Shown here piece after piece: positions 7,498 to 51,937 of a stretch of 64,000 nt of DNA. This stretch comes from Mycolicibacterium alvei. Its GTDB lineage: Bacteria > Actinomycetota > Actinomycetes > Mycobacteriales > Mycobacteriaceae. The notes under the pieces were generated by a model. The model worked only from the letters and a program-made list of their open reading frames with translations, made no database searches and was not told the DNA's origin. Positions within the stretch are counted from its first letter, which is position 1. Every line of letters starts with the position of its first letter. The position numbers were made by a program, and so were the translations under genes. The DNA lies in contig NZ_AP022565.1 of NCBI RefSeq assembly GCF_010727325.1, forward strand, positions 1,116,001 through 1,180,000. The letters run 5' to 3'.

Positions 7498-8819
7498 AGC
7501 TTGGATCCCGACTTGCCGTACAGCGCGGTGATCTTGCCGCGCAGCAGGGTGGCGGTCACCGTCGCCGGCAGCGTCATCGATTCGAAGGGCGTGTTGTCCG
7601 ACCTGCTGGCCAGCCCGTCACCTTCGACCGTCCAGCTTGCGTCGGGATCGACCACAGTGAGGTTGGCCGGCTCCCCCACTTCCAGCGGCCGGCCCTGATC
7701 GGGCAGGCCGACGATCGCCGCCGGAGCCTCGCTCATCACCTTCGCCACGCCGCGCCAGGTCAGCAGGCCGGGCCGCACCATGGTCTCGGCCACCACCGAC
7801 AGTGCGGTCTGCAAGCCGAGCATGCCCGGGCGGGCGACCGAGAACTCACAGCACTTCTCGTGCTCGGCGTGCGGCGCGTGATCGGTGGCGACACAGTCGA
7901 TCACCCCGTCGGCCAACGCCTGACGCAAGGCCTCGGCATCGCTGGACTCCCGCAGCGGCGGGTTGACCCGGTTACGACCGTCGTAGCTGGCCAGCCGGCT
8001 GTCATCGAGCAACAGGTGGTGCGGGGTCACCTCGGCGGTGATCGAAATACCCTGCGCTTTGGCCCATTTCAGCAATTCCACGGTGCCCGCGGTGGACGCG
8101 TGGCAGATGTGCACCCGGGCACCTGCATCGCGGGCCAGGATCGCGTCGCGGGCTACGATCGATTCCTCGGCCGCCCGGGGCCAGCCCGCCAGGCCCAGCC
8201 GGGCGGCGTTGGGCCCTTCATGGGCAACCGCACCGACGGTCAACCGCGGCTCTTCGGCGTGCTGGGCGATGAGCACCCCGAGGCCGGTGGCGTATTCCAG
8301 CGCCCGCCGCATCACCAGCGGATCATCGACACACAGCCCGTCGTCGGAGAACATCCGTACCTGGCCGACACCGTCGGACATCAGGCCCATCTCGGTGAGT
8401 TGCTTACCTTCGAGGCCGACCGTGACCGCACCGACCGGGTGCACGTCGACCAAGCCCACCTGCTGGCCGCGGTTCCAGACGTGGTCGGTGACGACGGCGG
8501 AATCGGCGACCGGATCGGTGTTGGCCATGGCGAACACCGCGGTGTAGCCACCGAGAGCCGCTGCAGCCGAGCCGGTTTCGATGTCCTCGGCGTACTCGCG
8601 GCCCGGCTCGCGCAGATGGGTGTGCAGGTCGACGAGGCCCGGCAGCAGCACCTGACCTGCGGCATCGATCACCTCGGCGCTCTTGGGAGCCTTGAGCGCG
8701 GAACCGATCTCGGCGATCTGGCCATCGGCGATCAGTACGTCGAGTTGGTCCCCCTCGCCGTAGAGCCGGACCCCGCGGATGAGCACCGGCGGATTCGAGT
8801 CTGCGATGTGTTTCGTCAT
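7494..8819 (-). CDS. pyrC: Dihydroorotase
   Basis: Cyclises N-carbamoyl-aspartate to dihydroorotate, the third step of UMP synthesis. The 441-residue protein is a class I amidohydrolase with the metal-binding [11 protein letters not shown] motif (His66 and His68), [28 protein letters not shown] and the catalytic-aspartate segment CVATDHAPH. It follows pyrB with a 4-nt overlap. The N-terminus is about 10 residues longer than the M. tuberculosis enzyme (MTKHIADSN ahead of PVLIRGVR), so an internal start is possible, but the ATG at 8819 is the one coupled to pyrB. Confidence 0.97.
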
Positions 8820-9772
8820 ACGCTGATCGCCTCCCGATCCGCGCCCACCAGAAGATGGAACAGCACCGCCATCCGCACGTGGACACCATTTGAAACCTGT
8901 TGCAGAACAGCTGATTGCGAAGAATCAGCGACCGGGAACGCGATCTCCATGCCGCGCAGCATCGGGCCCGGGTGCAGCACCACGGCGTGGCCGGGCAGCA
9001 TGGCCTGACGCTTCTCGGACAACCCGTAGCGCACCGAGTATTCACGGGCCGAAGGGAAGAAGGCACCGTTCATCCGCTCGGCCTGCACACGCAGCATCAA
9101 CACCGCATCGGCCGCGGGCAACTCCGCATCCAGGTCGTGCGACACCGTGACCGGCCACCCGGACACCCCTACCGGCAGCAGCGTCGGCGGCGCCACCAGC
9201 ACCACCTCGGCACCAAGGGTGGCCAGCAGCAACACATTCGACCTGGCCACGCGGCTGTGCAGCACGTCGCCGACGATCACCACACGCTTGCCCTCGATGG
9301 AGCCCAGCCGCTGCCGGATGGTCAAGGCATCGAGCAGGGCCTGGGTCGGATGCTCATGAGTGCCGTCACCGGCGTTGATCACGGTGGGACCCGAGCCCCC
9401 GTCCTCGGCGGTCCACTCGGCGAGCTGTTGCGCGGCGCCCGAAGCTGGGTGGCGGATGATGAGGGCGTCGGCACCGGCGGCGCGCAGGGTCAGCGCGGTA
9501 TCGCGCAGCGATTCCCCTTTGGCCACCGAGGATCCCGACGCGCTGACGTTGATCACGTCGGCGCTCATCCACTTGCCCGCCACCTCGAACGACACCCGGG
9601 TCCGGGTCGAGTTCTCATAGAACATGGTGATGACGGTGCGGCCGCGCAGCGTGGGCAGCTTCTTGACCTCACGGCCGAGCAGCGCCTCCCGGAAACGGTC
9701 GGCGTCGTCGAGGATCGCCGTCGCGTCCTCACGGCTGAGGTCCGCCGCCGACAGAAGATGACGCGTCGTCAT
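8816..9772 (-). CDS. pyrB: Aspartate carbamoyltransferase catalytic chain
   Basis: Condenses carbamoyl phosphate with aspartate. The 318-residue protein has the carbamoyl-phosphate loop STRTRVSFE (Ser55-Thr-Arg-Thr58), the [12 protein letters not shown] 80s-type loop, the HPTQALLD motif near residue 137 and the C-terminal [11 protein letters not shown] aspartate-binding segment. It overlaps pyrR by 4 nt (ATGA) upstream and pyrC downstream. No pyrI regulatory chain is present, as is usual outside enterobacteria. Confidence 0.97.
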
Positions 9773-10326
9773 TTCGAGATCACCACCCCATCACGGTCGT
9801 CGTCCTCGGCCAGCAGCACATGGACACTCTCGCTTCGCGAGGTCGGCACGTTCTTGCCGACGTAATCGGCGCGGACCGGCAGTTCCCGGTGACCGCGGTC
9901 GACCAGCACCGCGAGTTGCACCACCCGTGGGCGGCCGATGTCACGAAGCGCATCCAGCGCCGAGCGCACCGAACGCCCGGAGTACAAGACGTCGTCGACG
10001 AGGATCACCACTGCGTCGTCGATGCCGCCGGGCGGGATCGAGGTGGTCTCCAGTGGTCGCGGAGGCTTGAAGTTGAGGTCATCGCGGTAGAGCGTGATGT
10101 CCAGGGCGCCGACCGGCAGGGCGATGTCGGCGAACTCGTTGATCTTTTCCGCCAGGCGGGTGGCTAGGGTCACACCGCGCGTGGGGATGCCCAGGAGGAC
10201 GACCCGCTGACGTTCGGCGGGATCGTCGAGAGCGGTCTTCTCGATGATCTGGTGAGCGATCCGGGAAATGGTGCGGCCGACGTCCGACGCAGACAGCAAT
10301 TCCCGGTCGGTCCCTGAAGAGCCCAT
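9769..10326 (-). CDS. pyrR: Pyrimidine operon regulator / uracil phosphoribosyltransferase-like PyrR
   Basis: A 185-residue PRTase-fold protein that senses UMP/UTP and binds a hairpin in pyr mRNA; many PyrR proteins also have weak uracil PRTase activity. The PRPP loop is [20 protein letters not shown] (about residues 105-124) and the [10 protein letters not shown] segment is conserved. It is the first gene of the pyr operon. The ATG at 10326 lies 13 nt from the GGAGG at 10341-10345, which itself lies beside the PyrR-binding hairpin (10349-10364). That layout supports autoregulation of translation, as reported for M. smegmatis PyrR. Confidence 0.96.
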
Positions 10327-38238: not shown

Positions 38239-38492
38239 GTTGCTCGTGTCCTCGTGTTCGTGGGTGGCTGGGGTTGCGCAGGCAACCACCAGTGAGACCG
38301 CTTTACATTACCGTTCTGCGCGTTCGCCCCGAAAAGGCGACGATCCTCACGCCTCGAGAAAGCTCAGCCGCACCGATCGCTGCAGCCCGCGAGCCTTCCG
38401 CCAGACCATTGCCACCTGCGACACACCGGAGGATGGTTGAGGTGGAACCGGTGGCGCCACCGGGGCGCCGCCCTGGCAGGAAGGGGTGGATC
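38239..38492. other. Intergenic region between alaS and the ABM-like gene
   Basis: About 250 bp between divergent genes. It must hold both promoters. Nothing distinctive was seen apart from ribosome-binding sequences next to each start. Confidence 0.5.
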
Positions 38493-39113
38493 GTGTTCGC
38501 ACGTTCAACCACGATCGCGGCGCGCACCCAGGCCATCAACGCCGGCATCGCCCATGTCCGCGACGCGGTCATGCCCGCCCTCGACACCATCGACGGCTGC
38601 GTCGGGCTTTCCCTGATGGTGGATCGGCAGTCGGGCGACTGTGTCCTGACGACGGCCTGGCGGTCCGAAGAAGCCATGCATGCCAGCGCCGCCGCGATCG
38701 CGCCGATGCGCCATCGGGTGGTGGATACATTCGCCGGCACCGCGTCCGTCGACGAATGGGAGATCGCGGTGGTGCACCGCGAGCAGTACTCCGGACCGGG
38801 CGCCTGTGTCCGGGCAACGTGGCTGCGCACCCGCCCCGAACTGTTCGACCGGGCCGTCGAGTTCTACCGCACCTCGGTATTGCCGGCGATGGAAGACCTC
38901 GAGGGTTTCTGCAGCGCCAGCCTGATGCTCGACCGTGGGACGGGCCGGGCGGTGTCCTCGGCCACTTTCGACAGCGCCGAGGCGATGGACCACAACCGCG
39001 ATCAGGCCAGGGCGTTGCGCACGGCCCGGCTCCGCGATCTGAGCGCCGATCAGATCGATGTCGGCGAGTTCGAACTCGTGCTGGCCCACCTGCGGGTACC
39101 CGAGATGGCGTGA
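38493..39113 (+). CDS. Tandem dimeric alpha-beta-barrel (ABM-like) protein
   Basis: A 206-residue protein with two copies of a ~100-residue ferredoxin-like (antibiotic-biosynthesis-monooxygenase-type) domain: FARSTTIAARTQAINAG..VGLSLMVDRQSGDCVLTTAWRSEEAM and RATWLRTRPELFDRAVEF..CSASLMLDRGTGRAVSSATFDSAEAM. The repeat is clear in the SLMxDRxxG segments. The GTG at 38493 has GGAAGGGG 5 to 10 nt upstream and begins the first domain cleanly. Its place between alaS and rarA parallels Rv2557/Rv2558 of M. tuberculosis, which I believe are related. Function unknown. Confidence 0.75.
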   Translation: MFARSTTIAARTQAINAGIAHVRDAVMPALDTIDGCVGLSLMVDRQSGDCVLTTAWRSEEAMHASAAAIAPMRHRVVDTFAGTASVDEWEIAVVHREQYSGPGACVRATWLRTRPELFDRAVEFYRTSVLPAMEDLEGFCSASLMLDRGTGRAVSSATFDSAEAMDHNRDQARALRTARLRDLSADQIDVGEFELVLAHLRVPEMA

Positions 39114-39203
39114 CCCGCTGACGAAAACGAATTGACGGCACCGTTTGCGATATGACGGTGCCGGGTACTTCCTGGTCAGCCCAATCCAACCTCGGAGGAG
39201 AAC

Positions 39204-39512
39204 ATGACCATCACCGGCATCATCAGTGCGATTTTGATCGGCATCGTCGTCGGGGTGATCGGCCGCTTGATCGTCCCCGGCAGACAACCCATCGGCATGT
39301 TGGTGACGATCCTGGTAGGTATCGTCTCCGCATTCATCGGTACCGCGCTGGCGCGCACCATGGGCATCGCGACCGCGACCAGCGGCGTCGACTGGCTCGA
39401 ACTGCTCGTCCAGGTCATCGTGGCTGCGCTCGGCGTGGCGCTGCTGTCCGCCCTGATGGGGCGCAGGAAGACCGGCATCTTCGGAGCTCGACGGTCCGGC
39501 CTGCTGCGCTGA
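39204..39512 (+). CDS. GlsB/YeaQ/YmgE family small membrane protein
   Basis: A 102-residue inner-membrane protein with three hydrophobic segments: ITGIISAILIGIVVGVIGRLIVPG, GMLVTILVGIVSAFIGTALART and LLVQVIVAALGVALLSALMG. The GRLIVPG...G-T-G layout is that of the stress-linked transglycosylase-associated (YmgE) family. Strong GGAGGAG is 6 nt upstream of the ATG. A strong hairpin terminator follows. Monocistronic. Confidence 0.88.
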   Translation: MTITGIISAILIGIVVGVIGRLIVPGRQPIGMLVTILVGIVSAFIGTALARTMGIATATSGVDWLELLVQVIVAALGVALLSALMGRRKTGIFGARRSGLLR

Positions 39513-39526
39513 CAACTGCCCCCGCG

Positions 39527-39562
39527 CCACGGTCCCGGTTGAACATTCAACTGGGACCGTGG
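39527..39562 (+). terminator. Strong hairpin terminator after the YmgE-family gene
   Basis: Outer stem CCACGGTCCC with GGGACCGTGG (10 bp, perfect), extended by an inner GTTGAA/TTCAAC stem, then CTTTCGGTT. It lies just before the displaced rarA 3' end, so it also closes transcription coming from the right. Confidence 0.8.
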
Positions 39563-39580
39563 CTTTCGGTTGCGAAAGGC

Positions 39581-39820
39581 TCAGCGCCGCGCGCGTCGAA
39601 TGATGGCCCGCAGCTTGTCCACCCGGCTGGTCAATTCGCGTTCGAAGCCGCGCCCGGTCGGCCGGTAGTAGTCGGTCCCCACCAGTTCTTCTGGTGGATA
39701 CTGTTGCGGCACAACACCATCGGGATGATCGTGGGCGTATTTGTAGCCCACGGCGTTGCCCAGTTTCTCCGCGCCCGAATAGTGGCCGTCCCGCAGATGC
39801 GGAGGCACCAATCCGGCCTT
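39581..39820 (-). pseudogene. Displaced native 3' end of rarA
   Basis: Encodes the last ~79 residues of RarA ([20 protein letters not shown] ... [19 protein letters not shown]) without the ATPase part. It differs at about 14 of 79 positions from the C-terminus of the full-length rarA at 49668. Upstream of the core at 39816-39820 the similarity stops and integrase-side DNA begins. Joining the right flank (DIRAGKA) to this fragment gives an uninterrupted native reading frame. It is the attL-side remnant left by element integration and is unlikely to be expressed. Confidence 0.9.
39816..39820. other. attL crossover core
   Basis: GCCTT, shared with attR, is the point where native rarA sequence gives way to element DNA, 32 bp before the integrase start. 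On the coding strand the host side reads on as GGA-TTG-GTG-CCT-CCG. The exact dinucleotide exchanged by the serine integrase cannot be fixed by eye. Confidence 0.6.
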
Positions 39821-39851
39821 TACGGCTCTGCAGTTATGACACACTAGAGGG

Positions 39852-41264
39852 ATGAGTAAGGCGAACCGAATCCCCGCCGCGATCTACGTGCGGATATCCC
39901 AGGACCGCAGCGGCGCCGGTCTCGGCGTGGAACGCCAGGAACAGGACTGCCGCAAGCTGGCCGAATCACTCGGCTGGCGAGTCGCCCAAGTGTTCTGCGA
40001 TAACGACACATCCGCCTACTCAGGCCGACGCCGACCGCAATACGAGGCCCTGCTGGCTGCCATCGAGGCCGGTGAAGTGAAGGGGGTGCTGGCCTGGCAT
40101 CCCGACCGACTGCACCGCTCCCCCCGCGAGCTGGAGACTTACATCGACACCAGCGAGCGCCACGGCGCAGTCACCCACACGGTGCAGACCGGAATATGGG
40201 ACCTGTCCACGCCTTCGGGCCGCATGCTGGCGCGTCAATTGGGTGCGGTGTCCAGGTACGAATCCGAGCACAAGGGTGAACGCATCCGGCGCGCACGCGA
40301 GCAACAGGCCAAAGCCGGACGATTCCACGGCGGTATCCGCCCGTTCGGGTTTGAGTCTGACGGCGTGACCGTCCGCCCCGTGGAGGCCGCTGAGGTGGTG
40401 AAGATGGTGGAGTCCGTCGTCGGGGGCATCTCGCTGCGGTCGATCGTCCGTGACCTCAATGAGCGTGGCGTCCTTACCGCGACCGGTAAACCGTGGAGGT
40501 CCCAGTATGTCCGGGAGCTGATCTGCGCCCCGCGTATCGCTGGTTTGTCAGTCCACCACGGCGAGATTGCCGGGATCGCCGTCTGGCCTGCCCTAGTCCC
40601 CCGCGAAACCTGGGAGGCTGCCCGCCACATCCTCAACGATCCCCGTCGCCGTACAAATCCTGGGGGTGGACCCGCACCCAAGCATCTCGGTTCGGGTATC
40701 TACATCTGCGGGGTGTGTGGTGAGCGCACGTTGCGCGTTGGGCGTGCGAGCGGCCAGGAACCGGCCTACCGCTGCGGTAACCGTGACGTGCGCTTTACCG
40801 GGGGGCATGTGAGTCGCCGCGCCGCACAGCTCGACGGTTACGTGGAGGCCGTCATGGTGGAGCGGCTCTCCCGCCCTGGCCTGATCGACAGTGCGAAACG
40901 GCGAGACGATTCCGCAGAGCTGGCGGCGCTGCGCACCGAGCAGGACGCGATCAGACTGCGCCTGGAGCAACTGGCCGAGGCGTTCGCCGATGGTGAGATT
41001 GACCGCGCACAGCTGGCCGCTGGCACCAAGAAACTCACGGCGCGAGACACCGCGATTACCGCGACCCTCGCCCACCTTGGAGGCCGCAGCCCGCTGGACT
41101 TCATCACGGACACCACTGTGGACATTCCGGAACTGTGGCAGTCCCTCACGATGGGCCAGCGCCGCGCCGTCGTGGACTATCTCGCCGATGTGAAGATCGT
41201 TCGGCTAGGACGCGGCACTAAGGGGTTCAGCCCCGAGGGCGTCAAGATCACCTGGAAGCGATAG
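39852..41264 (+). CDS. int: Large serine integrase
   Basis: A 470-residue site-specific recombinase. The N-terminal resolvase domain has the nucleophile Ser16 in [13 protein letters not shown], with [26 protein letters not shown] and the [14 protein letters not shown] arginine segment. A recombinase domain follows ([21 protein letters not shown]), then a zinc-ribbon ([18 protein letters not shown]) and a coiled coil ([22 protein letters not shown]). The architecture and ending ([20 protein letters not shown]) resemble phiRv1 integrase. It starts 32 bp inside attL and reads away from it. Confidence 0.95.
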
Positions 41265-41766
41265 ACCGGCACCGGTTATCCGACCGATCCCCCGCACTGT
41301 CTCGGCAGTCATCGTCGGGGCGGCATCTACGACAGCACGCACGGCAGCGGCAAAATCGCTGCGGTCGGCTGGCGTTCCCATAAGTCCAGAAGGTACTCAG
41401 AGCCGACGACGGCTCTTGTGACCGAACATCATTCGGTCCCCGCCCACCGGTTGCGCTGCGGAAACGGCGCGCCGCCCTACACCATCATGTTTGGGGCGGT
41501 GGGCGCCGGTCCTGCGAATATGCCACCGCGCCAACCGGTCTGGCTTCTTCGGCATCGGCCTACGAAACCGACACTCCCGACTGCGGAAACCGGCACGACA
41601 CGCCGAAAAACCTCCGTGCTGTCCAGGTGGACTGCCTGCGACCTGCGTAAATGCGCCGATTGTGGTTCACGGAAAATTCCTGCGGTGTACCGACATTGTC
41701 AACCACTGTCCACGCCAACGACTTTCAGGCTCAATCGTCGTCGGAGCCGAGCGCTGTACTCGACGC
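41265..41766. other. Control region between integrase and excisionase genes
   Basis: About 500 bp with no gene I can support. A perfect hairpin GACCGAA, CATCA, TTCGGTC lies at 41420-41438. An open frame of 127 codons starting inside it (41418-41801) has a composition typical of chance GC-rich frames. The promoter for the 41767-44545 gene run probably lies near the right end. Confidence 0.45.
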
Positions 41767-42195
41767 ATGGAAACGCTAGAACGTGCGCTATCGCGCCATG
41801 AAACCGTGAGTATGACCGGGCTGTCCCTACGGGTAATCGACAAGCTCATCGAAAGCGGCGAGTTGCCCGCGTCAAAGATCGGTCGCCGCGTGCTCGTCCA
41901 GCCCCGGCATGTGCGCGAACTGCTGGAGAAGAACACCAGGGAGACCACCGTGAACCGTCCGGACGAACAGGAACTTGCTGCCCTGACCGTGCTGCGAGCC
42001 GTAGAGCACCGAATGAATCACGACGGTGAGGCGATGGTGAAAACCCTGCGGGGCACGGGGCGGCAAGTGTCCCTGCGCCTCTGTGAGGCCGTCGAACTCC
42101 TGGCCTACCTCGTGCGCCTATCTGACCCATCTGATCGGCCCGCCGAAATGTTGGCCGCGCTGCGCGAACGGGTGCAGTCTGCATCCTCCGACTGA
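41767..42195 (+). CDS. HTH protein, probable excisionase/recombination directionality factor
   Basis: A 142-residue protein. Residues ~12-60 form a MerR/excisionase-type HTH_17 domain (SMTGLSLRVIDKLIESGELPASKIGRRVLVQPRHVRELLEKN). The rest is helical with no known domain. Its position after the integrase gene suits a directionality factor, as in phiRv1, although a transcription regulator is also possible. ATG at 41767 gives the longest plausible start; a second ATG at 41812 would keep the HTH. Confidence 0.68.
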   Translation: METLERALSRHETVSMTGLSLRVIDKLIESGELPASKIGRRVLVQPRHVRELLEKNTRETTVNRPDEQELAALTVLRAVEHRMNHDGEAMVKTLRGTGRQVSLRLCEAVELLAYLVRLSDPSDRPAEMLAALRERVQSASSD

Positions 42196-42268
42196 AAACG
42201 GAAACCGCCCCGCGTGGTGGACATGCGGGACGGTCTCTGAGATTCCTAAACCGAGGAACGAGACTCCA

Positions 42269-43003
42269 ATGGTAGACGAAAGTGCCGACAAGGCGGAGCG
42301 CACGGACAAGTTCAAGTGGCTAAAGGCGATTCGGGCCGATTCCCGGCTGTCACCTGCGGACAAGTACGTCCTTCATGCCGCCGCCGTCGAATATGTGAAG
42401 CACGAGAAGGACACGTTCTATGTCCGCCAGATTGTCATGGCCAAGAGTTTTGGCGTTAGTCGCAGCACTATTCAGCGAGCCATCGGGAAGGCAAGGGAGC
42501 TTGGCTATCTCGTCCTACTTGCCGATCAGACTCGCCGTCAGGGTCGCGGCTATCACGACGCCGACTGTCATCGGCTGGTGATTCCCAGTGGGGTATCGGG
42601 CGTCAGGTTGACGCATAACGGGCGTCAGGTTGACGCAAAACGGGCGTCAGAGCCAACTCATCTACCTGCGGAAACGTCAGACCTAAGGGTGGTTAACAAG
42701 GGTGGATACAAGGGTGAAGTAACTACAACGGGTGAACTATGCGCATTTTCTGCCGAAAACGCGCCGATCAATAAACCGGACGTCCGTCTCGTTGATCTTG
42801 AACCTGAACAAGAACACGGTTCGCTTCGCTCACCGGGCCTGGACGAGAAGCAGGTGGTGGATTTTGATGCCGAGCTCTTGTGTGTGCGCTGCCAAAAGAA
42901 TCCGGCTCATTTCGCGTCGGACGATCAGCTTTGCCCCGATTGCATGGCAGATGCAGAAGACGACCGGAGGCGAGAATTTTCGGTGAGGGAGCTTTTTGGA
43001 TGA
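42269..43003 (+). CDS. Winged-helix DNA-binding protein, possible replication initiator
   Basis: A 244-residue protein. The N-terminal ~110 residues contain a helix-turn-helix (FYVRQIVMAKSFGVSRSTIQRAIGKARELGYLVLL). A middle disordered part follows, then a C-terminal zinc-ribbon-like LLCVRCQKNPAHF..DDQLCPDCMAD. GAGGAA precedes the ATG. Such HTH proteins next to int/xis in small elements often start replication; here this is inference. The central part (42590-42760) is visibly less GC-rich than host genes. Confidence 0.6.
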   Translation: MVDESADKAERTDKFKWLKAIRADSRLSPADKYVLHAAAVEYVKHEKDTFYVRQIVMAKSFGVSRSTIQRAIGKARELGYLVLLADQTRRQGRGYHDADCHRLVIPSGVSGVRLTHNGRQVDAKRASEPTHLPAETSDLRVVNKGGYKGEVTTTGELCAFSAENAPINKPDVRLVDLEPEQEHGSLRSPGLDEKQVVDFDAELLCVRCQKNPAHFASDDQLCPDCMADAEDDRRREFSVRELFG

Positions 43004-43809
43004 CCATGACACCGACACCAACTACTGCGCAAATCCCCACCAAATCAGTTGGTGGTGAACAACTTGCGCGCCCGATCGCCGACGACGCCACGATGGCGAT
43101 TACTGGGGCTGAGTCGCCCGCACAGCATCGAACGGCTCGCGGGCAGGGTGGTTCTACCACCAAAAGCTCTACGGGCCGCACAGGGCCGCGTTTCGGGTAT
43201 CGCATCGTGCGCGTTGCCGACCTCCGCAGCGACCTCCACCCGCTGTGGCATCGCGGTCGCCGTGAACGCTGGCGTCCGGTCCCCGGGTGGGGATACGAGG
43301 TTTCCGACTTGGGACACGTGCGCTCGGTGGATCGCATCGTCGCCCGCAGCGACGGCAGTACCCAACGCGTCCTAGGTCGGATGATTCGCCCGACCACGCA
43401 TCGCAGCGGGCATCTGCGAGTGATGCTCCACCGCAACGGCAAGCGGGCCACGCGCTACGTCCACCGATTGGTTTTGGAGGCATTCTCAGGACCCGCCCCA
43501 CCCGGCATGGAAATGTGCCGTCACTGGAATGACGATTGCCGGGACAATCGCGCCGAAAATTTGGTCTGGGGCACCGACGACCAGAACCGACAAGATCGGG
43601 TGCGCAACAGTCGGCGCCACAATCCCAAAAGGTCTCGCTGCGCATGCCGCAGTTGTAGGGCACGCGCACGTGAACGTGCCGCAAATATCGCCAGAGCGAG
43701 CACCGCGTACCCGTCCTGCGAGGTCTGCGGGAGTGCTGTCGTGGCTGGTCAAGGCACAGTTCACTTCTCGTGCGCACCTAGCCGGGATATTCGTCGTCGG
43801 CGGGCATGA
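43000..43809 (+). CDS. NUMOD4-HNH endonuclease
   Basis: A 269-residue protein coupled to the upstream gene (ATGA). After a ~90-residue low-complexity N-terminus there is a NUMOD4 motif (WRPVPGWGYEVSDLGHVRSVDR) and an HNH_3 nuclease core (YVHRLVLEAFSG, then CRHWNDDCRDNRAENLVWG). The C-terminal part is very basic with cysteine pairs (RCACRSCRARARERA, CEVCG). Such enzymes in phages are homing nucleases or take part in packaging. The frame extends upstream inside the previous gene but the overlapping ATG is the likely start. Confidence 0.8.
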   Translation: MTMTPTPTTAQIPTKSVGGEQLARPIADDATMAITGAESPAQHRTARGQGGSTTKSSTGRTGPRFGYRIVRVADLRSDLHPLWHRGRRERWRPVPGWGYEVSDLGHVRSVDRIVARSDGSTQRVLGRMIRPTTHRSGHLRVMLHRNGKRATRYVHRLVLEAFSGPAPPGMEMCRHWNDDCRDNRAENLVWGTDDQNRQDRVRNSRRHNPKRSRCACRSCRARARERAANIARASTAYPSCEVCGSAVVAGQGTVHFSCAPSRDIRRRRA

Positions 43810-44303
43810 GCACGATGGAGTCGAGGAGAGAATCGCAAATGACTGCACCGGCCTGGACTATCACCCCAACCGCCGAACAATGGTGCGCCGTGGTGGATTC
43901 TGCGGAGTACGCCGCCCACGGCGACCGGACCCGCAGTGCCGGAGCGCTCATCGAGTCGGGGCAGGACGTTCGGGTGCTCGCGGTGGTCGGTATTCGTCTC
44001 CTGGCCGGGGTGCTCGCTGAAGGTGTGAGCGCCGATGAGATACGGCGAGAAGTGTTGGCGTTGGCCAGCTGTACCGGCGCACCCGACCGCACAGTCAACG
44101 CCGCGCTGGAAACTCTAGGTATGGCCGAAGCGCTCACCCGAGACGATTGGGCGGCAGTTGACGCGCTCTGCGCCGGGAGCCAAATCGCCGTGGTGGATAT
44201 CGTGGTGATGGCTACCGCGCTGGCAGGACAGGCCATCTCGTCCTCGACAGACGACGTGGCCGGAGCGTTCTATCGGCTCCGAGAAGCTTGGGGTGCAGCA
44301 TGA
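43806..44303 (+). CDS. Unknown element protein
   Basis: A 165-residue mainly helical protein without known motifs (AGALIESGQDVRVLAVVGIRLLAGVLAEG, then NAALETLGMAEALTRDDWAAVDALC). No signal peptide. Its ATG overlaps the upstream stop and its stop overlaps the WhiB start, so it belongs to one translational chain. I do not recognise it. Confidence 0.65.
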   Translation: MSTMESRRESQMTAPAWTITPTAEQWCAVVDSAEYAAHGDRTRSAGALIESGQDVRVLAVVGIRLLAGVLAEGVSADEIRREVLALASCTGAPDRTVNAALETLGMAEALTRDDWAAVDALCAGSQIAVVDIVVMATALAGQAISSSTDDVAGAFYRLREAWGAA

Positions 44304-44545
44304 GCGTGAACCGGGCCGAACAGGGACCTGTGAGTCTAATAGCTGCCGTCCTGCGGGGTGTCCCCATGTTGCACGGCGCATTGTGTGTTGGTGCGCGGGG
44401 GCGGTTCTGGGAAGCCGAGAATGGCAACAAAATTCGCGTCCGCGAGTGCATCGCGTTGTGCCACCAATGTCCATGTTTGGCACAGTGCCGCCAGCTCTGC
44501 GAGGAGATGATCCGCCCCGGCATGTCGGGAGGTTCTCTTATCTGA
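44300..44545 (+). CDS. WhiB-like [4Fe-4S] regulator, 3' end cut by an IS
   Basis: An 81-residue protein with four cysteines in WhiB spacing: Cys29, then Cys54-x2-Cys57-x5-Cys63 (ALCHQCPCLAQC), preceded by FWEAENGNKIRVRECI and followed by RPGMSGG at the place of the GVWGG turn. Two extra cysteines (Cys50, Cys59) are present. The natural C-terminal DNA-binding basic tail is missing: the frame ends within a few codons at the edge of the IS3-family element. Phage WhiB proteins often antagonise host WhiB2; this copy may be inactive. Confidence 0.68.
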   Translation: MSVNRAEQGPVSLIAAVLRGVPMLHGALCVGARGRFWEAENGNKIRVRECIALCHQCPCLAQCRQLCEEMIRPGMSGGSLI

Positions 44546-45486
44546 GTGCCTCCTCGGCATGAGGGTGCCGTTGGCGATGGTAGTAGAGCGCTTCGGCCCG
44601 ATCGGGGGTCAGGTCCTGGCAGTAGCCGTTGGGTCGCTGACGGTTGTAGAAGGCCACCCATTCGGCGGTCCCCAGCGCCAGTTCGGTGGCACCGGGATAG
44701 AGCGGCTGGCGGTCGATGAGTTCGGTCTTGTAGCTGCTGTTCACCGATTCGGCCAGAGCATTATCGAAACTATCCCCGACGGATCCGACTGAAGGCAGGA
44801 TCCCCTCAGCGGCCAGACGTTCGGTGAACGCGACCGCGGTGTATTGCGAGCCCGCGTCGCTGTGGTGGATAAGTGAATCCAAAGATGCTGCACCCGAACG
44901 CTTTCTGGTGTCGATAGCGTGGTCGATCGCATCGGTCACCAGCTTCTGGGTCATCTCGGTAGCCACCTTCCAACCCACGATCTTGCGGGCATAGACATCG
45001 GTGACGAACGCCGTAGGCCCAGCCGGCACGAGTCCGGCAGTAGGTGAAATCGGCCACCCACAATCGGTCAGGCGCACCGGCGACGAAATTACGCCGGACC
45101 CGATCCGGGGCTCGCGTCGCTGCCGGATCGGCGACGGTGGTGCGCACCCGCCGGCGCTTGCACGCACCCCGCCAACCCATCTCCCGCATGACCCGTTCCA
45201 CGACACAGCGCGATACGTCGATACCATTGGTGCGCAATACAATCCATGTTTTACGAGCGCCCAGGACTCGGTACAGACTCTGCGATTGGCGAAGCTGCCA
45301 GATCGCATCGATCACCTGCGCATCGGCCCAGTCGGCTTTCGAGGGCCCTGACGGGCGCGGTGGGCGTAATACGTCGACGGGCGATCGTGACGCCGTACTC
45401 GGAAAGCACAGCGCACATCGACTCGACACCCCACTTGACCATCAACGCCCACCCGCATGTGCTGGTGGGCGCTGATGAACTCCACG
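44538..45486 (-). pseudogene. IS3-family transposase OrfB with multiple frameshifts
   Basis: The rve/DDE domain is recognisable only by hopping frames: EFISAHQHMR, then VKWGVESMCAVLSEYGVTIA, then PSTYYAHRARQGP, then SKADWADAQVIDAIWQL through RLWVADFTYCRTRAGWAY (first Asp), then AFVTDVYARKIVGWKV, SLIHHSDAGSQYTAV (second Asp) and GDSFDNALAESVNSSYKTEL (Glu). At least four indels, three of them in short G or C runs plus a 2-bp loss near 45024, break it. It cannot make an active transposase. Confidence 0.85.
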
Positions 45487-45487
45487 A

Positions 45488-45814
45488 CTACTGAGAGGGC
45501 CGGTCGAGCTCGGCGGCGAAGAAAACCGAGGCCGCCTTCAAGATCGCGTTGGCCCGCTTGAGTTCGGCATTCTCCCGGCGCAGCTTGCGCAGGACCTCGG
45601 ATTCCTCGCTGGTCTGCCCCGCCCGAGAGCCGGCGTCGATCTCAGCCTGGCGAACCCATTTGCGCACCGTTTCGGCAGTACCGACGCCCAGCAGGTCAGC
45701 AACCCGGCCCATCGCCTCCCACTCCGAAACTGTCTCGCTGCGCAGATCGGCCACCATCTGCACCGCCCGCACCTTCAGCTCGTCTGGATACCGCCTCGAT
45801 GACTTCGATCCCAC
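45488..45814 (-). CDS. IS3-family transposase OrfA
   Basis: A 108-residue HTH protein: RRYPDELKVRAVQMVADLRS, then LLGVGTAETVRKWVRQAEID and a leucine-rich coiled coil (LRKLRRENAELKRANAILKAASVFFAAEL). It has the standard layout of OrfA in the IS3 family, including the end at which a frameshift into orfB normally occurs. GTG start with GGAAGG upstream. Confidence 0.88.
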   Translation of the reverse strand: MGSKSSRRYPDELKVRAVQMVADLRSETVSEWEAMGRVADLLGVGTAETVRKWVRQAEIDAGSRAGQTSEESEVLRKLRRENAELKRANAILKAASVFFAAELDRPSQ

Positions 45815-45850
45815 GTGCCCATCCTTCCCAACGGAAGAACTCTCCAGACA

Positions 45851-46611
45851 CGCCGGGGCGGATCACCGGGTCCAATAGCACCAGATTCCCGGTGATCGTT
45901 GAGGACCCGTCGAATTCGTGGACCCAAAACGGAGCCGAGATACCGGTGTCAGACCCGGACATTAATGAGATAGATGTAATCCCTTCCGGCCTTAAGGGTT
46001 TGGTGGTGGTGACTAATGAGTTGGTCGCTGACAGTGACCCGTCCGCGCTCGACGTGGTGGGACAAGGACTTGTCCGCGACCTGCGCACCAAACTGGACGC
46101 CGCGTTCCTGGGCAACACTGTTGCCAATGGCCCCAGCGGAATCGAGTCCCTGACCGGGGTAAGCGAAACCACGCTGAGTTTCGACGGCTCACTCGACGTG
46201 ATCGCCGAAGCTGTGTCGCTGGCGGAGAATGCCGGTGCACCCACCGTCCACCCCGATGGGCTGCCCAACTTCTCACTGGTCGCCAATCCCTCCGATGTGT
46301 TGGCACTCAGCACCGCCAAGGTCTCCGACGACAGCCACCAGCCACTACTGGGACCCGACGCGACCAAAGTCACCGGACGTTCCGCGTTGGGTGTCCCGAT
46401 CTTTTCGGCACCCGCATGTGAGCAGGGCACCGCGTGGCTGATTCCCCGGGACCGTGTGTTCGTGGTGCTGCGGGACGATCCCGAAGTCATTGCAGACACC
46501 AGCGCGTTCTTCTCCAGTGCCCGCACGGCTATCCGCGCGGTGCTGCGGGTGGGCATCGCCTTCCCGCACGAGGCTGCCGTGGTGCGTGTCGCCATCGACG
46601 GCGGCAGCTGA
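45851..46611 (+). pseudogene. HK97-type major capsid protein, 5'-truncated
   Basis: About 253 codons of the C-terminal capsid fold: TRFPVIVEDPSNSWTQNGAEIPVSDPDINEIDVIPSGLKGLVVVTNELVADS (E-loop/P-domain transition), LDAAFLGNTVANGPSGIESL, then AWLIPRDRVFVVLRDDPEV and HEAAVVRVAIDGGS. The N-terminal arm is absent because the IS3-family element ends at 45850. The open frame continues a little into IS DNA (ATG at 45799), so a fusion product could be made. No prohead protease remains. Confidence 0.85.
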
Positions 46612-46684
46612 CAGACCCACCGCTGCCTGACCGGGTGAGCCTTCCTGGCTACTCCTGGCCTGGGCAGGTAGCGGTGCACCAAGC

Positions 46685-46726
46685 CACCCGGCTGCCCGTG
46701 AAGTCCCCGCCACGGGCAGCCGGGTG
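46685..46726 (+). terminator. Hairpin terminator after the capsid gene
   Basis: Perfect 16-bp stem CACCCGGCTGCCCGTG with its complement, 10-nt loop, 74 bp past the capsid stop. No T-tract follows, as is common in mycobacterial and mycobacteriophage terminators. Confidence 0.75.
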
Positions 46727-46750
46727 CCACACACCCCTGGAGAACAAACC

Positions 46751-47080
46751 ATGACGTGGACAGGTGACCGCAGGACCCGTCCCCGCAACGGTGCACGGCG
46801 ACTCCCCGAACGGCTACGGCAACGAGTCCTGCGCCGATACCCTGTCTGCTGGCTCAACATTCCCGGTAGGTGCACGATCACCTCTGTCGAGGTCCACCAT
46901 GTGCGGGATGACGCCGATGGTGGAACCGATACCGAATTCAATCCGGACGGCTCACCGCAGCTGGTCGGGGTCTGCGCGGAATGTCACCGTCACGTCAGTG
47001 CCCGCAACTCTGCTGCCCGCAGCAATGTGGGCACCCGCGTCATGCGGGAGAAGGAACGCCACCCCGGTGTCCTACCCTGA
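46751..47080 (+). CDS. Phage HNH endonuclease
   Basis: A 109-residue protein with a compact HNH core: RRYPVCWLNIPGRCT, VEVHHVRDDADGG, then LVGVCAECHRHVSARNSAAR. The paired cysteines and HH/N/H pattern match phage HNH proteins that lie beside terminase genes and help packaging. GGAG sits 8 nt upstream of the ATG. It follows the capsid terminator and precedes the repeat-rich region and a TerS-like gene. Confidence 0.82.
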   Translation: MTWTGDRRTRPRNGARRLPERLRQRVLRRYPVCWLNIPGRCTITSVEVHHVRDDADGGTDTEFNPDGSPQLVGVCAECHRHVSARNSAARSNVGTRVMREKERHPGVLP

Positions 47081-47371
47081 CCAGGACGAACCCCACCGAA
47101 GTGCGCCAACCGCAACAACATTCGGCACAGCAAACACGTCAAAAGTGTTGCGTCACAACACATCCGAAATCACCAAATCTGGTGTGCCGCAACGTATTAC
47201 AAGCATCCACCAGCAACGCGGGACGTGGTGACATCTGTGGACACAGCTAACATGTGGACGCGATGAATAGGGCTCTGACCTGCGTAAACAATGCCCTGGG
47301 GGATGTCCCGCTAACCCCACTTCTCCCGCGACCGGAACGGTCTCGCTCGCATTCTCCGTACTACGCGGTAC

Positions 47372-47401
47372 ATTTGCGCAGGTCAGGGGCTATTTTTGGC
47401 C
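47372..47401. repeat. Direct repeat copy 1 in the element gap
   Basis: ATTTGCGCAGGTCAGGGGC followed by TATTTTTGGCC. It matches copy 2 except for a few bases. Confidence 0.75.
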
Positions 47402-47434
47402 CACCGGGACGCTTTGCGGCACAACAATTCTCAC

Positions 47435-47465
47435 GTTTGCGGCAGGTCAGGGCATATTTTTGGCG
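47435..47465. repeat. Direct repeat copy 2 in the element gap
   Basis: GTTTGCGGCAGGTCAGGGC followed by ATATTTTTGGCG, 64 bp after copy 1. Same orientation. Confidence 0.75.
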
Positions 47466-47561
47466 TGTCCGAATCCCGTTGTGTGGCAACGTCTGTCAGC
47501 GTACGTATCGCATTGTCTACCAACGGTTTTGGTGACTGCCATGCGGCCTACACTCAATGTC

Positions 47562-47942
47562 ATGGTGAAGACTGCGGGTGAGGCACTGCGGGAACGGCTG
47601 GATACCGCCCTGGCCGAACGCGGTCCCGGATGGGAATGGACTGCCCTGGACCTGGAGGTAATCGACTCGGCTGCCCGCCACGCGGACCGGGCCGAACAAC
47701 TCCAGCGGGTGTATGACCAGAACCTCACGGGTGAGTCGCCGAGCGTGTCGGCCCTGGCGAGGTTGGCTGCCGAGTGTCGGCACCATGAGCGCCGGGTGCT
47801 GGAGATGGTTTCGCAGTTGGCGGCGCCGGAGGATGTGCCGAAGAGTGCGAGGCATCAGGCGGCGGTAAATTCCCGGTGGAATCGTAAGCGTCGGCGGGAT
47901 GCTGCCCGGGTGGGTCCGCGTCCGATTCGGGCGGTGGACTGA
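47562..47942 (+). CDS. Small-terminase-like phage protein
   Basis: A 126-residue mostly helical protein (ALRERLDTALAERGPGWEWTALDLEVIDSAARHADRAEQLQRVY, then ALARLAAECRHHERRVLEMVSQL) with a basic C-terminus (SRWNRKRRRDAARVG). Its size, helix pattern, opening 'residues before a DNA-binding segment', and position beside an HNH gene resemble actinophage small terminase subunits. I cannot confirm it without a search. ATG at 47541 is an alternative start. It overlaps the next gene by one base (TGATG). Confidence 0.55.
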   Translation: MVKTAGEALRERLDTALAERGPGWEWTALDLEVIDSAARHADRAEQLQRVYDQNLTGESPSVSALARLAAECRHHERRVLEMVSQLAAPEDVPKSARHQAAVNSRWNRKRRRDAARVGPRPIRAVD

Positions 47943-48190
47943 TGCCCCGCCGTAATCCGGCGTTGGTGGCGCCGAGTCGGGACGGTTTGGGGCCGGTGTA
48001 CCGGCGACTGTTGGATCGGGAACGGGACTTGCAGAGGCGGTTTGGTGTGGTGGGCCAGCATCGCCGCCCCCGGCATCTGTTGGATGCCCTGGAGCGCGGG
48101 GAGACGGTTGAGGTGCCGTTTTGGCGGGTGCCGTCAGAGTTTCTGCCACGCGACCACGGCGAGATGGTTGTGGTTGACCCGGGCATGTGA
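47942..48190 (+). CDS. Small basic unknown element protein
   Basis: An 82-residue basic protein (MPRRNPALVAPSRDGLGPVY.., then RQRRFGVVGQHRRPRHLLDALE-type charged helix). It starts on the TGATG overlap of the previous gene, so it is translated with it. No known domain. The stop at 48188-48190 lies 6 bp from the convergent cargo gene. Confidence 0.6.
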   Translation: MPRRNPALVAPSRDGLGPVYRRLLDRERDLQRRFGVVGQHRRPRHLLDALERGETVEVPFWRVPSEFLPRDHGEMVVVDPGM

Positions 48191-48196
48191 GGCGGC

Positions 48197-49078
48197 TTAG
48201 TGATAGAGCGCTGACCAGTTCGCAATTGTCGGGTTGAGGGTGTGCGGGTGAAGTTGCTGCCGACTGGTAGGCGCGTCAGTTCGCTGTGCCTGTGCTTCGT
48301 AAAGTGCGACTGCGCATTCGGCCATACCGACTGCCGCCGCTAGTCCGTCAGCGACCATGCGAAACGTCTCCAGTTCGCCGGTCTGCACATAGCGCAACGC
48401 CCATTTGAAGCCGTGGACGAAGCTAGAACCGAGCACGTAGAACCGCTCCACGCCCGCCTCGAACCCGCTGCCAAATAGGCCCTGATCGTGGGCAGGCGGG
48501 TGCGCGTCTATCCACGTTCCGGCTTTCGTCACGAACCCCGAAGAGTTCGGCGGCTTCTCACGTTTCAAGCCGTTCAGCATGTCGACCTGCTCGTCAAACA
48601 ATCGGACGTGCTCCTCGAACTTTGCATAGACCGGTTCATTTTGGTACCCGGGCCTCAGGCGTAACCGTTTGCGTTCAGCCGCGAGAAAGCCACGTTGTGC
48701 ATCGAGCTCCGAGTTAGTGAATCCGACGCACCGAGCGCGCCGCTCGGCGCGTTCGGTCGGTGACAGTAGCCAGATCGTCTTGGCTGCCGACTCCACCGCC
48801 CCCCGGCATAGGGCACAGATCGAGGAGATGTGGGCGTTCTTGCTTTGGGGTCGAAACTCGATTAGGTCGGCAACTGCCGCAAGGTTGTCGGTGGCGTTCA
48901 TGATCGGGAACGACGCGGTGAGATTCACGAGGCCGTCGACCATGAAGCCCTCGTCATCGAGTGCCAGGCTGCTGCCAGCGTCGCACAGCTGTGGTCGTAC
49001 GCCCCAGACTTTGAGGGCGCGTCCCCGCTTGGCCCTGCTGTAGGTTCGCTCCAGGATTGGCTGTCTTGGATCTGTCAT
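48197..49078 (-). CDS. Element cargo protein B, unknown
   Basis: A 293-residue soluble, mainly helical protein. Features: ICALCRGAVESAAKTIWLLSPTERAERRARCVGF (an R-x3-E-x3-W-L-L type helix followed by an Arg-rich stretch), a central AERKRLRLRPGY region and C-terminal FYVLGSSFVHGFKWALRYV with a conserved-looking S-x2-H. The pattern recalls DUF5677-like proteins, but I am not sure. The ATG overlaps the stop of the upstream membrane-anchored gene, so the two are made together. Convergent with the phage genes and adjacent to attR, the usual place for element cargo such as defence or exclusion genes. Confidence 0.65.
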   Translation of the reverse strand: MTDPRQPILERTYSRAKRGRALKVWGVRPQLCDAGSSLALDDEGFMVDGLVNLTASFPIMNATDNLAAVADLIEFRPQSKNAHISSICALCRGAVESAAKTIWLLSPTERAERRARCVGFTNSELDAQRGFLAAERKRLRLRPGYQNEPVYAKFEEHVRLFDEQVDMLNGLKREKPPNSSGFVTKAGTWIDAHPPAHDQGLFGSGFEAGVERFYVLGSSFVHGFKWALRYVQTGELETFRMVADGLAAAVGMAECAVALYEAQAQRTDAPTSRQQLHPHTLNPTIANWSALYH

Positions 49079-49608
49079 CAGTTGACGTACTCGCGTGCCG
49101 GAAGGAAGCGGTAGCGCAGATACGTCCAATATCCCCCGAGTCCGTGGTTGTCCATCTTGCCCAACGCTCGTAGGTATTTCTGCGAGTCCGTGTCCAGGCT
49201 CTCCCATGCGATGCCGAGTCGGCGCTGGTTTTCGGCTGTCAGTTTGGCGTGGAGTTCAGCACCGTGAGCCGCCTTCGATAGCTGCAACGTGGATCTACCG
49301 CGCACATCACGGAGAATCCACTTCAGGCGCTCCAGGTGTGAGCGGCTTGGCGAGATAAGCCCGTCCTCGTGAATCTGGTCAAGTGCCTGAAAGCTGTATT
49401 GCGGCGACCGGTCAACCACCTCCCAACCTTCATGCTGGAAGTACACGAGGCAGGCGAGGTTCATCTCACGCAACTGTTTGCGTAGCCGATCCCTGAGTTG
49501 GCGCTGGTTGCTGCTACGGGCCGTTACGAAGCTCGTGCCGAAGGTGATCAGCCCGGTGACGCCGGTAGCGATCCCCAGGCCAGCCGCGACAGTCTGCACG
49601 ACGCTCAT
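49078..49608 (-). CDS. Element cargo protein A, membrane-anchored, unknown
   Basis: A 176-residue protein with one N-terminal membrane segment (VVQTVAAGLGIATGVTGLITFGTSFV) followed by a charged helix (ARSSNQRQLRDRLRKQLREM) and a soluble domain (LVYFQHEGWEVVDRSPQYSFQALDQI, HLERLKWILRDVRGRSTL, LGGYWTYLRYRFLPAREYVN). No known family. It lies between cargo B and the hybrid rarA and reads with them on the minus strand, starting 60 bp past the rarA stop. Confidence 0.65.
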   Translation of the reverse strand: MSVVQTVAAGLGIATGVTGLITFGTSFVTARSSNQRQLRDRLRKQLREMNLACLVYFQHEGWEVVDRSPQYSFQALDQIHEDGLISPSRSHLERLKWILRDVRGRSTLQLSKAAHGAELHAKLTAENQRRLGIAWESLDTDSQKYLRALGKMDNHGLGGYWTYLRYRFLPAREYVN

Positions 49609-49667
49609 AGCGGCACCTTACGGGCGGTCAGGGTAGGCGGCGGGCTGCCACGCGCGGGAGCTGTCAT

Positions 49668-51005
49668 TCACCGCCGCATTTTGCGAATGATGGCCCGCAG
49701 CTTGTCTACCCGCGAGATGAGTTCACGTTCGAAACCGCGCCCGGTCGGCTGGTAGTAGTCCACCCCCACAAGATCGTCGGGCGGATATTGCTGCGCCACC
49801 ACACCGCTGGGATCGTCGTGCGCGTACTTGTAGCCGATGGCGTTGCCCAGTGATTCCGCCCCGCTGTAATGCCCATCTCTTAAGTGTCTTGGGACCGCCC
49901 CCGCCTTGCCGGCCCGGATGTCGTTCATCGCCGCACCGAGCGCCGTGGTGACGGCATTGGACTTGGGCGCGGTGGCCAGGTGCACGGTGGCATGCGCCAA
50001 GGTCAACTGCGCCTCAGGCATTCCGATCAATTGCACGGTCTGGGCGGCGGCGACCGCGGTCTGCAACGCGGTGGGATCGGCCATCCCGATGTCCTCGCTG
50101 GCCAGGATCATCAGGCGGCGCGCCACGAAACGCGGATCCTCCCCCGCCACCAACATCCGGGCCAGGTAGTGCAGGGCCGCATCGACGTCGGATCCGCGGA
50201 CCGACTTGATGAAGGCGCTGACGACGTCGTAGTGCTGATCGCCGTCACGGTCGTAGCGCACCGCGGCCTTGTCCAACGACTGCTCGATCACCTCGACGGT
50301 GACCCGCTCCCGGGGCTCGGCAGCGACTTCCAACGCAGTGAGCGCCCGCCGCGCATCACCGGCGGAGAGCTGCACCATGAGGTCGACGGCCTCGTCGGTG
50401 ACCTCGACCGCACCACCCAGCCCCCGCGGGTCGGTGATCGCACGACGCAGCACGATCTCGATGTCCGGCGGGGTCAGCGGTTGCAACTGCAGGATCAATG
50501 ACCGCGACAGCAGCGGCGCAACCACCGAGAACGACGGGTTCTCCGTGGTGGCCGCCACCAAAAGCACGACCCGGTTCTCCACGGCCGCCAGCAACGCATC
50601 CTGCTGGGTCTTGGAGAAGCGATGCACCTCGTCGATGAACAGCACGGTCTGTTCGCTGTGATGAATGAGAGCCACCCGTGCCTTTTCCAGCACGGCGCGG
50701 ACCTCCTTGACGCCGGCGCTCAGCGCCGACAGCGCCTCGAACCGGCGGCCGGTGGCCTGCGAGATGAGCGAGGCCAGGGTGGTCTTGCCGGTGCCGGGCG
50801 GGCCGTAGAGGATGACCGATGCGGCGCCGGATCCCTCCACCAGGCGGCGCAAGGGCGAACCGGCCTGCAGCAGATGGGTTTGGCCGACAACCTCGTCGAG
50901 GTCGGCCGGGCGCATTCGCACCGCCAGCGGCGCCGAAGCGGGAGCCGACGCACCCGGCCCTGCGGGTGCGGGCTCACCGGGCACGTCGAACAAACCGTCG
51001 GACAC
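49668..51005 (-). CDS. rarA: Replication-associated recombination protein RarA (MgsA), hybrid 3' end
   Basis: A 445-residue AAA+ ATPase acting at stalled forks. Walker [12 protein letters not shown], Walker [10 protein letters not shown], sensor 1 [10 protein letters not shown], the arginine finger region [13 protein letters not shown] and the C-terminal RarA tetramerisation domain ([28 protein letters not shown]). The last ~78 codons (49668 to ~49902) come from the integrative element and replace the native end now at 39581. The element-derived part keeps [14 protein letters not shown] and [14 protein letters not shown], so the protein should be functional. GTG start. The N-terminus has a Pro/Ala-rich stretch. 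Confidence 0.94.
49903..49907. other. attR crossover core
   Basis: GCCTT again. To the right is host rarA (GACATCCGGGCCGGC on the coding strand). To the left the codons become AT-richer (AGA-CAC-TTA-AGA-GAT), marking element-supplied rarA 3' sequence. Host attB can be rebuilt as the right flank plus the left remnant. Confidence 0.6.
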
Positions 51006-51035
51006 GCCTTCTGCTTACCACGCCGACGCGACGGA

Positions 51036-51869
51036 CTACGCCGGCGCGGTGACGAAGTCGATCAGTTCCTCGACCCGGCCGATCAGCGCGGGCTCCAGGT
51101 CGTTCCAGTCCCGGACCCGGCCGCGGATCCGCTGCCAGGCCCGGGCAATGTCGGCCTGTTCCCGATGCGGCCAGCCCAGCGCGTCGCAGATGCCGTGTTT
51201 CCACTCCACGTTGCGCGGGATGGTCGGCCAGGCCTTGATCCCGAGCCGGGCCGGTTTGACGGACTGCCAGATGTCGACGAACGGGTGCCCGACCACCAGG
51301 GTGTGCTCACCACCGGGGCCCCTGCGCACCGCCTCGGCGATGCGCGCCTCCTTGGATCCGGTGACCAGGTGATCGACCAGCACGCCGAGCCGACGGCCCG
51401 GCTCGGGCGCGAACTCCGCCACGATGTCGGCCAGATCGTCGACACCGCCCAGATATTCGACGACGACACCTTCGATACGCAGATCCGCGCCCCAGACCTG
51501 TTCGACCAACTCGGCGTCGTGACGGCCTTCGACGTAGATCCGGCTGGCCCGCGCCACGCGGGCCTTGGCGTTCGGTACCGCAACGGAGCCGGACGCGGTA
51601 CGTGCCTGGGTCGCGGTCCGCTTGGGTACGGTCAGGCTGACCGGCTTGCCGTCGATCAGGAAACCCGGGCCCATCGGGAAAGCCCGGACCTTGCCGCGGC
51701 GGTCTTCGAGTTCGACCCGACCGCCCTCGATCCGAACCACCGCACCCACGAATCCACTCTGGGCGTCCTCCACGACCAGGCCCTTCTCCGCGGGCTGATC
51801 AATCGATCGAGTCAGCTTCGGGGTGTGCGGGTTTCGGGACAGGATGTCGGAACCGTAGCGATCAGTCAC
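51036..51869 (-). CDS. DUF3097 family protein
   Basis: A 277-residue actinobacterial protein of unknown function. It starts MTDRYGSDILSRNPH and has a beta-rich N-terminal part (FVGAVVRIEGGRVELEDRRGKVRAFPMG) and a C-terminal TOPRIM-like part (ASRIYVEGRHDAELVEQVWG with an acidic Glu, RLGVLVDHLVTGSKEARIAEAV with Asp, VVGHPFVDIWQSVKP). This suggests a nuclease or primase-like metal site, which is inference. It precedes rarA on the same strand. Confidence 0.88.
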   Translation of the reverse strand: MTDRYGSDILSRNPHTPKLTRSIDQPAEKGLVVEDAQSGFVGAVVRIEGGRVELEDRRGKVRAFPMGPGFLIDGKPVSLTVPKRTATQARTASGSVAVPNAKARVARASRIYVEGRHDAELVEQVWGADLRIEGVVVEYLGGVDDLADIVAEFAPEPGRRLGVLVDHLVTGSKEARIAEAVRRGPGGEHTLVVGHPFVDIWQSVKPARLGIKAWPTIPRNVEWKHGICDALGWPHREQADIARAWQRIRGRVRDWNDLEPALIGRVEELIDFVTAPA

Positions 51870-51937
51870 GCGGCGATCCTAGAAACGCCCGCGGCGGCAG
51901 CGGGGTCGCGACATGCCGTCGTGATCGTGCTGTTAAC

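Follow-up and report, generated by a model that had tools for sequence, protein, structure and literature searches.

Within a 64,000-nucleotide stretch of the Mycolicibacterium alvei genome (contig NZ_AP022565.1, positions 1,116,001 to 1,180,000; hereafter the window), an element of about 10.1 kb that encodes a large serine integrase lies inside rarA and supplies that gene with a replacement 3' end. The element, measured from core to core (39816..49907), interrupts rarA at the Lys codon of a GKAG motif, and a 5-nucleotide AAGGC core is common to its two ends (39816-39820 and 49903-49907). On one side the native 3' end of the gene lies stranded, 31 nucleotides from the start of the integrase gene (39852), while on the other the body of rarA runs in frame into the element's own version of that end; the two ends are 73.4% identical as DNA and differ at 14 of 79 residues. 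Much of this had been anticipated in a preliminary description made from the letters of the window. It had placed the native end, of about 79 codons, beside the integrase at 39581-39820, where we indeed find it with an 89.9% nucleotide match to the uninterrupted gene of a relative. It had likewise estimated a difference at about 14 of 79 residues, as counted here, and a replacement of about 78 codons; the latter is 79 codons long and finds a 97.5% match in the supplied end of a second carrier, Mycolicibacterium setense (Table 1).

The empty site and a second carrier

The uninterrupted locus is preserved in a relative lacking the element (G020), which has one contiguous rarA. Positions 8399-9816 of its locus match window positions 38406-39826 and the next block, 6380-8629, matches 49683-51935; these blocks overlap only on the single rarA 3' end, which is hence matched twice, and the contiguous gene shows the native reading frame across the junction. 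The preliminary description had proposed comparing the rarA end of such an element-free relative with both copies. The G020 end resembles the stranded copy (89.9% of nucleotides) rather than the copy now on rarA (73.8%), and so leaves the claimed insertion standing.

The same element, with the same architecture, is carried by M. setense DSM 45070 (G323, locus L082). Between the two hosts the supplied ends are 97.5% identical, as against 84.8% for the stranded ends and 87.6% for the rarA bodies (965 of 1101 aligned bases); therefore, the supplied end moves with the element. For both stranded ends the nearest native end is that of G020 (86.1% in the case of M. setense), while the supplied ends reach at most 74.4% identity to any of 30 natives. 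The empty site in G020, the insertion in M. setense and the anatomy of the attachment (att) sites all support the view that a large serine integrase brought the element into rarA, and the presence there of a serine-integrase element that supplies a replacement 3' end is confirmed. A displaced native fragment at one end, an in-frame replacement at the other and a known empty site place it by its structure among the elements that restore the ends of genes.

The supplied end as coding sequence

The native 3' ends used for comparison come from 54 of 56 loci, two (L011 and L095) having failed a motif filter and two with additional rarA ends (G186 and G411, see below) being counted in; the set is dominated by close relatives of the window rarA and is not a random sample. 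There are 40 positions that do not vary among these natives, and none of the 40 is changed in either supplied end. The reading frame of the chimeric rarA is open and of full length in both hosts. Relative to the G020 end, the supplied end has a nonsynonymous divergence (dN) of 0.153 and a synonymous divergence (dS) of 1.38, with a dN/dS of about 0.11 that has to be read with the near-saturation of dS in mind. Subject to that caution, the supplied end appears to have evolved as protein-coding sequence and, because of the open frame, the retained invariant residues and this ratio, rarA has probably been kept working. One position that has turned to Arg in the supplied end varies among the natives (Pro in 27, Ala in 21, Thr in four and Ser in two) and aligns with a Val in E. 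coli RarA.

Codons 34-42 of the native C-terminal end (39698-39715 in the stranded end of the window) form a synonymously constrained stretch, GAT GGT GTT GTG CCG CAA CAG TAT CC, which by our own measure is the most constrained eight-codon window of the last 276 codons. GTT is present in 51 of the 54 natives although in the compared stretch 7% of Val codons are GTT, and TAT is found in 54 of 54. Within the stretch is a partial inverted repeat. In degenerate form, the stretch is present a single time per genome in 11 of 14 genomes of the genus and is absent from 136 others; a pattern scan of viral contigs gave no match to it. It has been lost from the supplied rarA ends.

A putative integrase arm in rarA codons

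The attP of serine integrases is built of 25-bp half-sites with the zinc-domain motif toward the outside (PMC3783163; this and the other papers cited are represented here by extracts, except where their main text is named). With positions counted from the core AA toward the outside, we read 11 close arms (both arms of the elements in the window, M. setense, Nocardia brasiliensis, G102 and G299, and the integrase-side arm of G185) and four distant ones; the arm of L086 was dropped as its junction falls elsewhere in the ATPase gene targeted by these relatives. Positions 18-22 read [GT][AG]CAC in 11 of the 11 close arms and G[AG]CAC in 10 of them, the window and M. setense arms not being independent of each other, and this placement matches the attP design above. 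Along with the shared 5-nucleotide core, it identifies the site at the sequence level as the attP of a large serine integrase.

In the arm that lies within rarA, the motif is GACAC, written in the codons AGA CAC. None of the 54 native ends has the motif at positions 18-22, and the background rate of G[AG]CAC in the window element is 0.0036 per position and strand. Codons 7, 9 and 10 of the supplied end are AGA, TTA and AGA, none of which any of the 54 natives has at that place; across six host-gene stretches of the window, AGA provides two of 253 Arg codons and TTA one of 300 Leu codons. Over codons 0-12, three codons of the supplied end are unseen in natives, as against zero or one for any native left out of the set. 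Left-right symmetry at positions 18-29 reaches 9/12 in the supplied end and 4-6/12 in the 54 natives. The right arm looks dual-coded, seemingly carrying an integrase signal and rarA codons on the same bases: the change from Pro, Ala, Thr or Ser to Arg would be due to the GACAC motif being written as AGA CAC, and the rare codons beside the motif are probably owed to the integrase arm. The supplied arm had no match in the pattern scan of viral contigs.

The integrase and its ATPase-targeting relatives

The integrase combines a resolvase catalytic domain (PF00239, 6.2e-30), a recombinase domain (PF07508, 7.9e-13) and a zinc ribbon (PF13408, at 21.7 bits under the cut-off of 25.3) and matches PHROG 95 (7.8e-96), a make-up that assigns it to the large serine integrases. 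In a tree of 37 integrases the rarA pair is supported at 100/100 and falls within a five-member group (91/96) that also holds the integrases of N. brasiliensis, G102 and G299. The target of these close relatives is a type II/IV secretion ATPase (PF00437), which is TadA-like, cut at the Lys codon of its P-loop. G102 and G299 have a single C-terminal half of the ATPase each, with the N-terminal frame stopping 10 and 6 codons beyond the junction, and the ATPase gene is therefore left unrestored; in N. brasiliensis the two halves of the ATPase lie about 10.7 kb apart.

The AGKAG site of rarA resembles this P-loop. With the best of three ATPase sequences taken for each of the 54 natives, the mean match is 12.1 of 20 nucleotides before and 11.4 of 20 after the crossover, compared with 8.0 and 8.2 for 52 control Lys codons in the six host-gene stretches; the controls include RarA's own P-loop, at 12 and 11, and another Gly-Lys site, at 13 and 7. 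A target hop between the P-loop and the P-loop-like stretch of rarA is plausible, presumably in the direction of rarA.

Relatives of the integrase in the collections of phages and plasmids are all less than 60% identical to it. The integrases of the window and of M. setense are 94% identical overall, but a short segment of their catalytic domains (40125-40296 in the window) is markedly different, as if it had been patched by recombination. Several other relatives (L066, L042, L043, L047; L065, L048, L053, L060) adjoin genes for a GATGSG P-loop protein or DUF222-like genes. The fragment of the P-loop protein beside the G185 integrase had no match to a Pfam family; going by its GATGSG motif, it is presumably EccC.

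Doubled and broken rarA genes

A scan of 396 genomes of the genus (E 1e-8), 10 of which gave no rarA match and in which insertions masked by contig breaks would escape, found two rarA C-terminal matches in four genomes, namely those of the window, M. setense, G186 and G411. The element itself accounts for two of the 396, the window and M. setense; G411 has a decayed copy of the rarA 3' end and G186 a copy at a contig edge, both breaking at a codon other than that used by the element. An order-wide search (397 genomes, an overlapping set; E 1e-9) likewise returned two matches in four genomes, of which two are the element carriers and the others G056, with two long rarA matches, and G543.

Duplication or truncation of the rarA 3' end in G411 (L077), G186 (L079/L080) and G290 (L078) lies at or near the constrained stretch described above (about codon 398), which suggests a second, unrelated insertion point in rarA. 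In G290 the gene is truncated, with N in the sequence shortly downstream on that contig, and in G015 (C229) rarA is present on one contig as two pieces in swapped order. G035, listed as 100% complete, has no rarA match at E 1e-9.

Proposed mechanism and alternatives

The best overall explanation, in which we have high confidence, is that the large serine integrase of a phage-satellite-like element recombines attP with an attB inside rarA. The crossover, placed by the symmetry of the arms, would fall at the AA of AAG, the Lys codon of GKAG. Integration would cut off the last 79 native codons and join rarA in frame to the 79-codon copy of the element, with the right attP arm lying within the supplied codons; a full-length RarA would be encoded during the integrated state and precise excision would return the native gene. 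The integrase lineage would have moved from the secretion-ATPase P-loop to the P-loop-like stretch of rarA, gaining a rescue copy. With less assurance, but on balance favoring the idea, we propose that the arm, by lying in rescued host codons, dictates an amino acid and rare codons, and that it arose when a lineage that breaks its ATPase target moved to rarA and there needed a rescue copy.

Several observations weigh against this proposal or parts of it. Little can be concluded from the rare codons by themselves, since divergence runs through the whole supplied end: beyond the arm it has another eight codons that no native shares, as against 0-4 when a native is left out of the set. With the comparison widened to 30 bp, the supplied end scores just 14 for left-right symmetry, compared with 8-13 in natives, and the right arm differs from the other arms beyond positions 18-22. 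The motif is also not invariant, since the four distant integrase-side arms (about 40% identity) read GACAC, AACAC, GACAC and GACGC, with two of the four fitting G[AG]CAC. Two copies of the rarA element being known, the dual-coded arm amounts to a single event in evolution. As for the direction of the target change, the support of the five-member integrase group is below the star threshold and its inner order is unresolved. Further, the dS behind the coding argument is close to saturated, with an insertion sequence directly against its capsid gene the window copy may have lost its mobility, and rarA may be dispensable, given the G035 genome, which weakens the selection for rescue.

An ordinary duplication or gene conversion of the rarA 3' end, with a phage element nearby by chance, would account for two 3' ends flanking the element, and other such duplications exist (G411 and, at a contig edge, G186). 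We regard it as extremely improbable, as the breakpoint is identical in two species with different host DNA, the supplied ends travel with the element, and the motifs of the integrase arms are symmetric about the break. Simple gene duplication, on which the preliminary description would have been overturned, is contradicted by the M. setense copy. We also give little credence to the insertion being real and the supplied end a mere by-product of the att site, with a non-functional RarA and unselected restoration: the possible dispensability of rarA (no match in G035, a truncated gene in G290) and the related elements that simply break their target ATPase would fit this, but the full-length frame open in both hosts, the complete set of 40 invariant residues and the dN/dS speak against it. 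Finally, the unusual codons might stem from drift or from a divergent donor rarA instead of integrase recognition. The supplied end has only about 74% DNA identity to natives over its whole length, and the eight codons outside the arm that are missing from natives point the same way; yet GACAC stands where the motif lies in other arms of close relatives, and the three unseen codons within codons 0-12 exceed what any left-out native shows, making this origin rather unlikely.

Element cargo and satellite character

Both the window and M. setense copies have an integrase and a major capsid gene, the combination used as the operational definition of a candidate phage-inducible chromosomal island (PMC10654092). 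Portal and large terminase proteins had no match among the open reading frames scanned, a part of the total, and 3 kb of the element searched as DNA against phages gave none either. The M. setense copy has no DNA matching the stretch that comprises the insertion sequence, presumably of IS3 type, and the capsid gene (44491-46611). Nor does the cargo beside the supplied end (48197-49608 in the window, 18005-19318 in L082) match as DNA from one copy to the other, and PADLOC gave no match for either.

Table 1. Positions within the window of the split rarA gene, the attP arms and the genes of the element
Feature	Position	Strand	Details
Integrated element	39816..49907	.	AAGGC core at each end; missing from G020; same architecture in M. 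setense L082
Chimeric rarA (native body, supplied 3' end), 445 aa	49668..51005 (51005-49668)	minus	E 2e-99 to E. coli RarA structure 3pvs
Stranded native rarA 3' end, 79 codons + stop, attL side	39581..39820	minus	89.9% nucleotide identity to G020 native end; G020 synteny continues beyond
Element-supplied rarA 3' end, 79 codons + stop	49668..49907	minus	97.5% nucleotide identity to M. setense supplied end; <=74.4% to the 30 native ends compared
Left attP arm motif GACAC	39838..39842	plus	positions 18-22 outward from core
Right attP arm motif GACAC	49884..49888	minus	positions 18-22, in rarA codons AGA CAC
Large serine integrase, 470 aa	39852..41264	plus	PF00239, PF07508, weak PF13408; PHROG 95
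HTH_17 / excisionase-like protein, candidate directionality factor (putative role)	41767..42195	plus	PF12728, phrog_66; stretch scanned 41731-42195
Helix-turn-helix protein, replication-initiation-like	42269..43003	plus	PF13730; phrog_8102, E 1.5e-4
HNH endonuclease-like phage protein	42880..43809	plus	phrog_1492
Insertion sequence, two transposase open reading frames	44538..45814	minus	PF00665/PF13683, PF01527
Major capsid protein, start abutting the insertion sequence	45799..46611	plus	PF05065, phrog_10
HNH endonuclease	46724..47080	plus	phrog_333
Two cargo genes without family match	48197..49608	minus	Pfam, PHROG and PADLOC all negative

Implications and comparison with known systems

Going beyond the preliminary description are the dual-coded arm and the contrast with target-breaking relatives. 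If the former is real, it would be a natural case of two codes on the same bases, a serine-integrase arm and the end of a conserved protein. The latter sets integrases that break one ATPase gene beside similar ones that rescue another, and so opens to direct test when a mobile element will pay for the rescue of its target. Moreover, rarA might serve as an integration locus of vectors for rapidly growing mycobacteria.

The elements e14 and phage 21 insert in the icd gene of E. coli and supply a replacement 3' end. The rarA element is like them in its insertion within a protein-coding gene and in the 3' end that it brings; unlike these tyrosine-integrase elements, it has a large serine integrase, a 5-nucleotide shared core and an arm inside the supplied codons. 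In the mycobacteria, phiRv1 sits in a 13E12 repeat, to which we liken the position of L065, a relative of the rarA-element integrase, within a DUF222 gene.

Restoration of an interrupted gene is itself a known habit of integrative elements (PMC12884075), and the preliminary description, which had called the present case less usual, is supported in its interpretation but made the restoration more surprising than it is. As a small element with an integrase and a capsid gene, it is akin to phiRv1, phiRv2 and the mycobacterial candidate islands (PMC10654092). The word rarA is absent from the main text of that paper, whose extracts do not describe a replacement protein-gene end supplied by a serine integrase; for a serine-integrase vector in M. 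abscessus its authors took no position on whether the split gene regains its expression. The target of another serine-integrase prophage is likely inactivated (PMC9934374), and the literature library that we searched returned no paper bringing together serine integrase, rarA and attB. According to the survey of Durrant et al. (2022), large serine integrases target conserved protein-coding genes, some of them common to distant integrases (PMC10083194); the word stem "restor" is absent from its main text, and its targets are described as disrupted, whereas in rarA a 3' end is supplied. In Bifidobacterium, the 3' end of dnaJ2 is rebuilt after the integration of prophages of about 39-43 kb that use a tyrosine integrase and 35-bp att sites (PMC6109161). 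The rarA element thus shares with these an actinobacterial target gene whose 3' end is rebuilt upon integration, and differs from them in its serine integrase and its size of about 10.1 kb.

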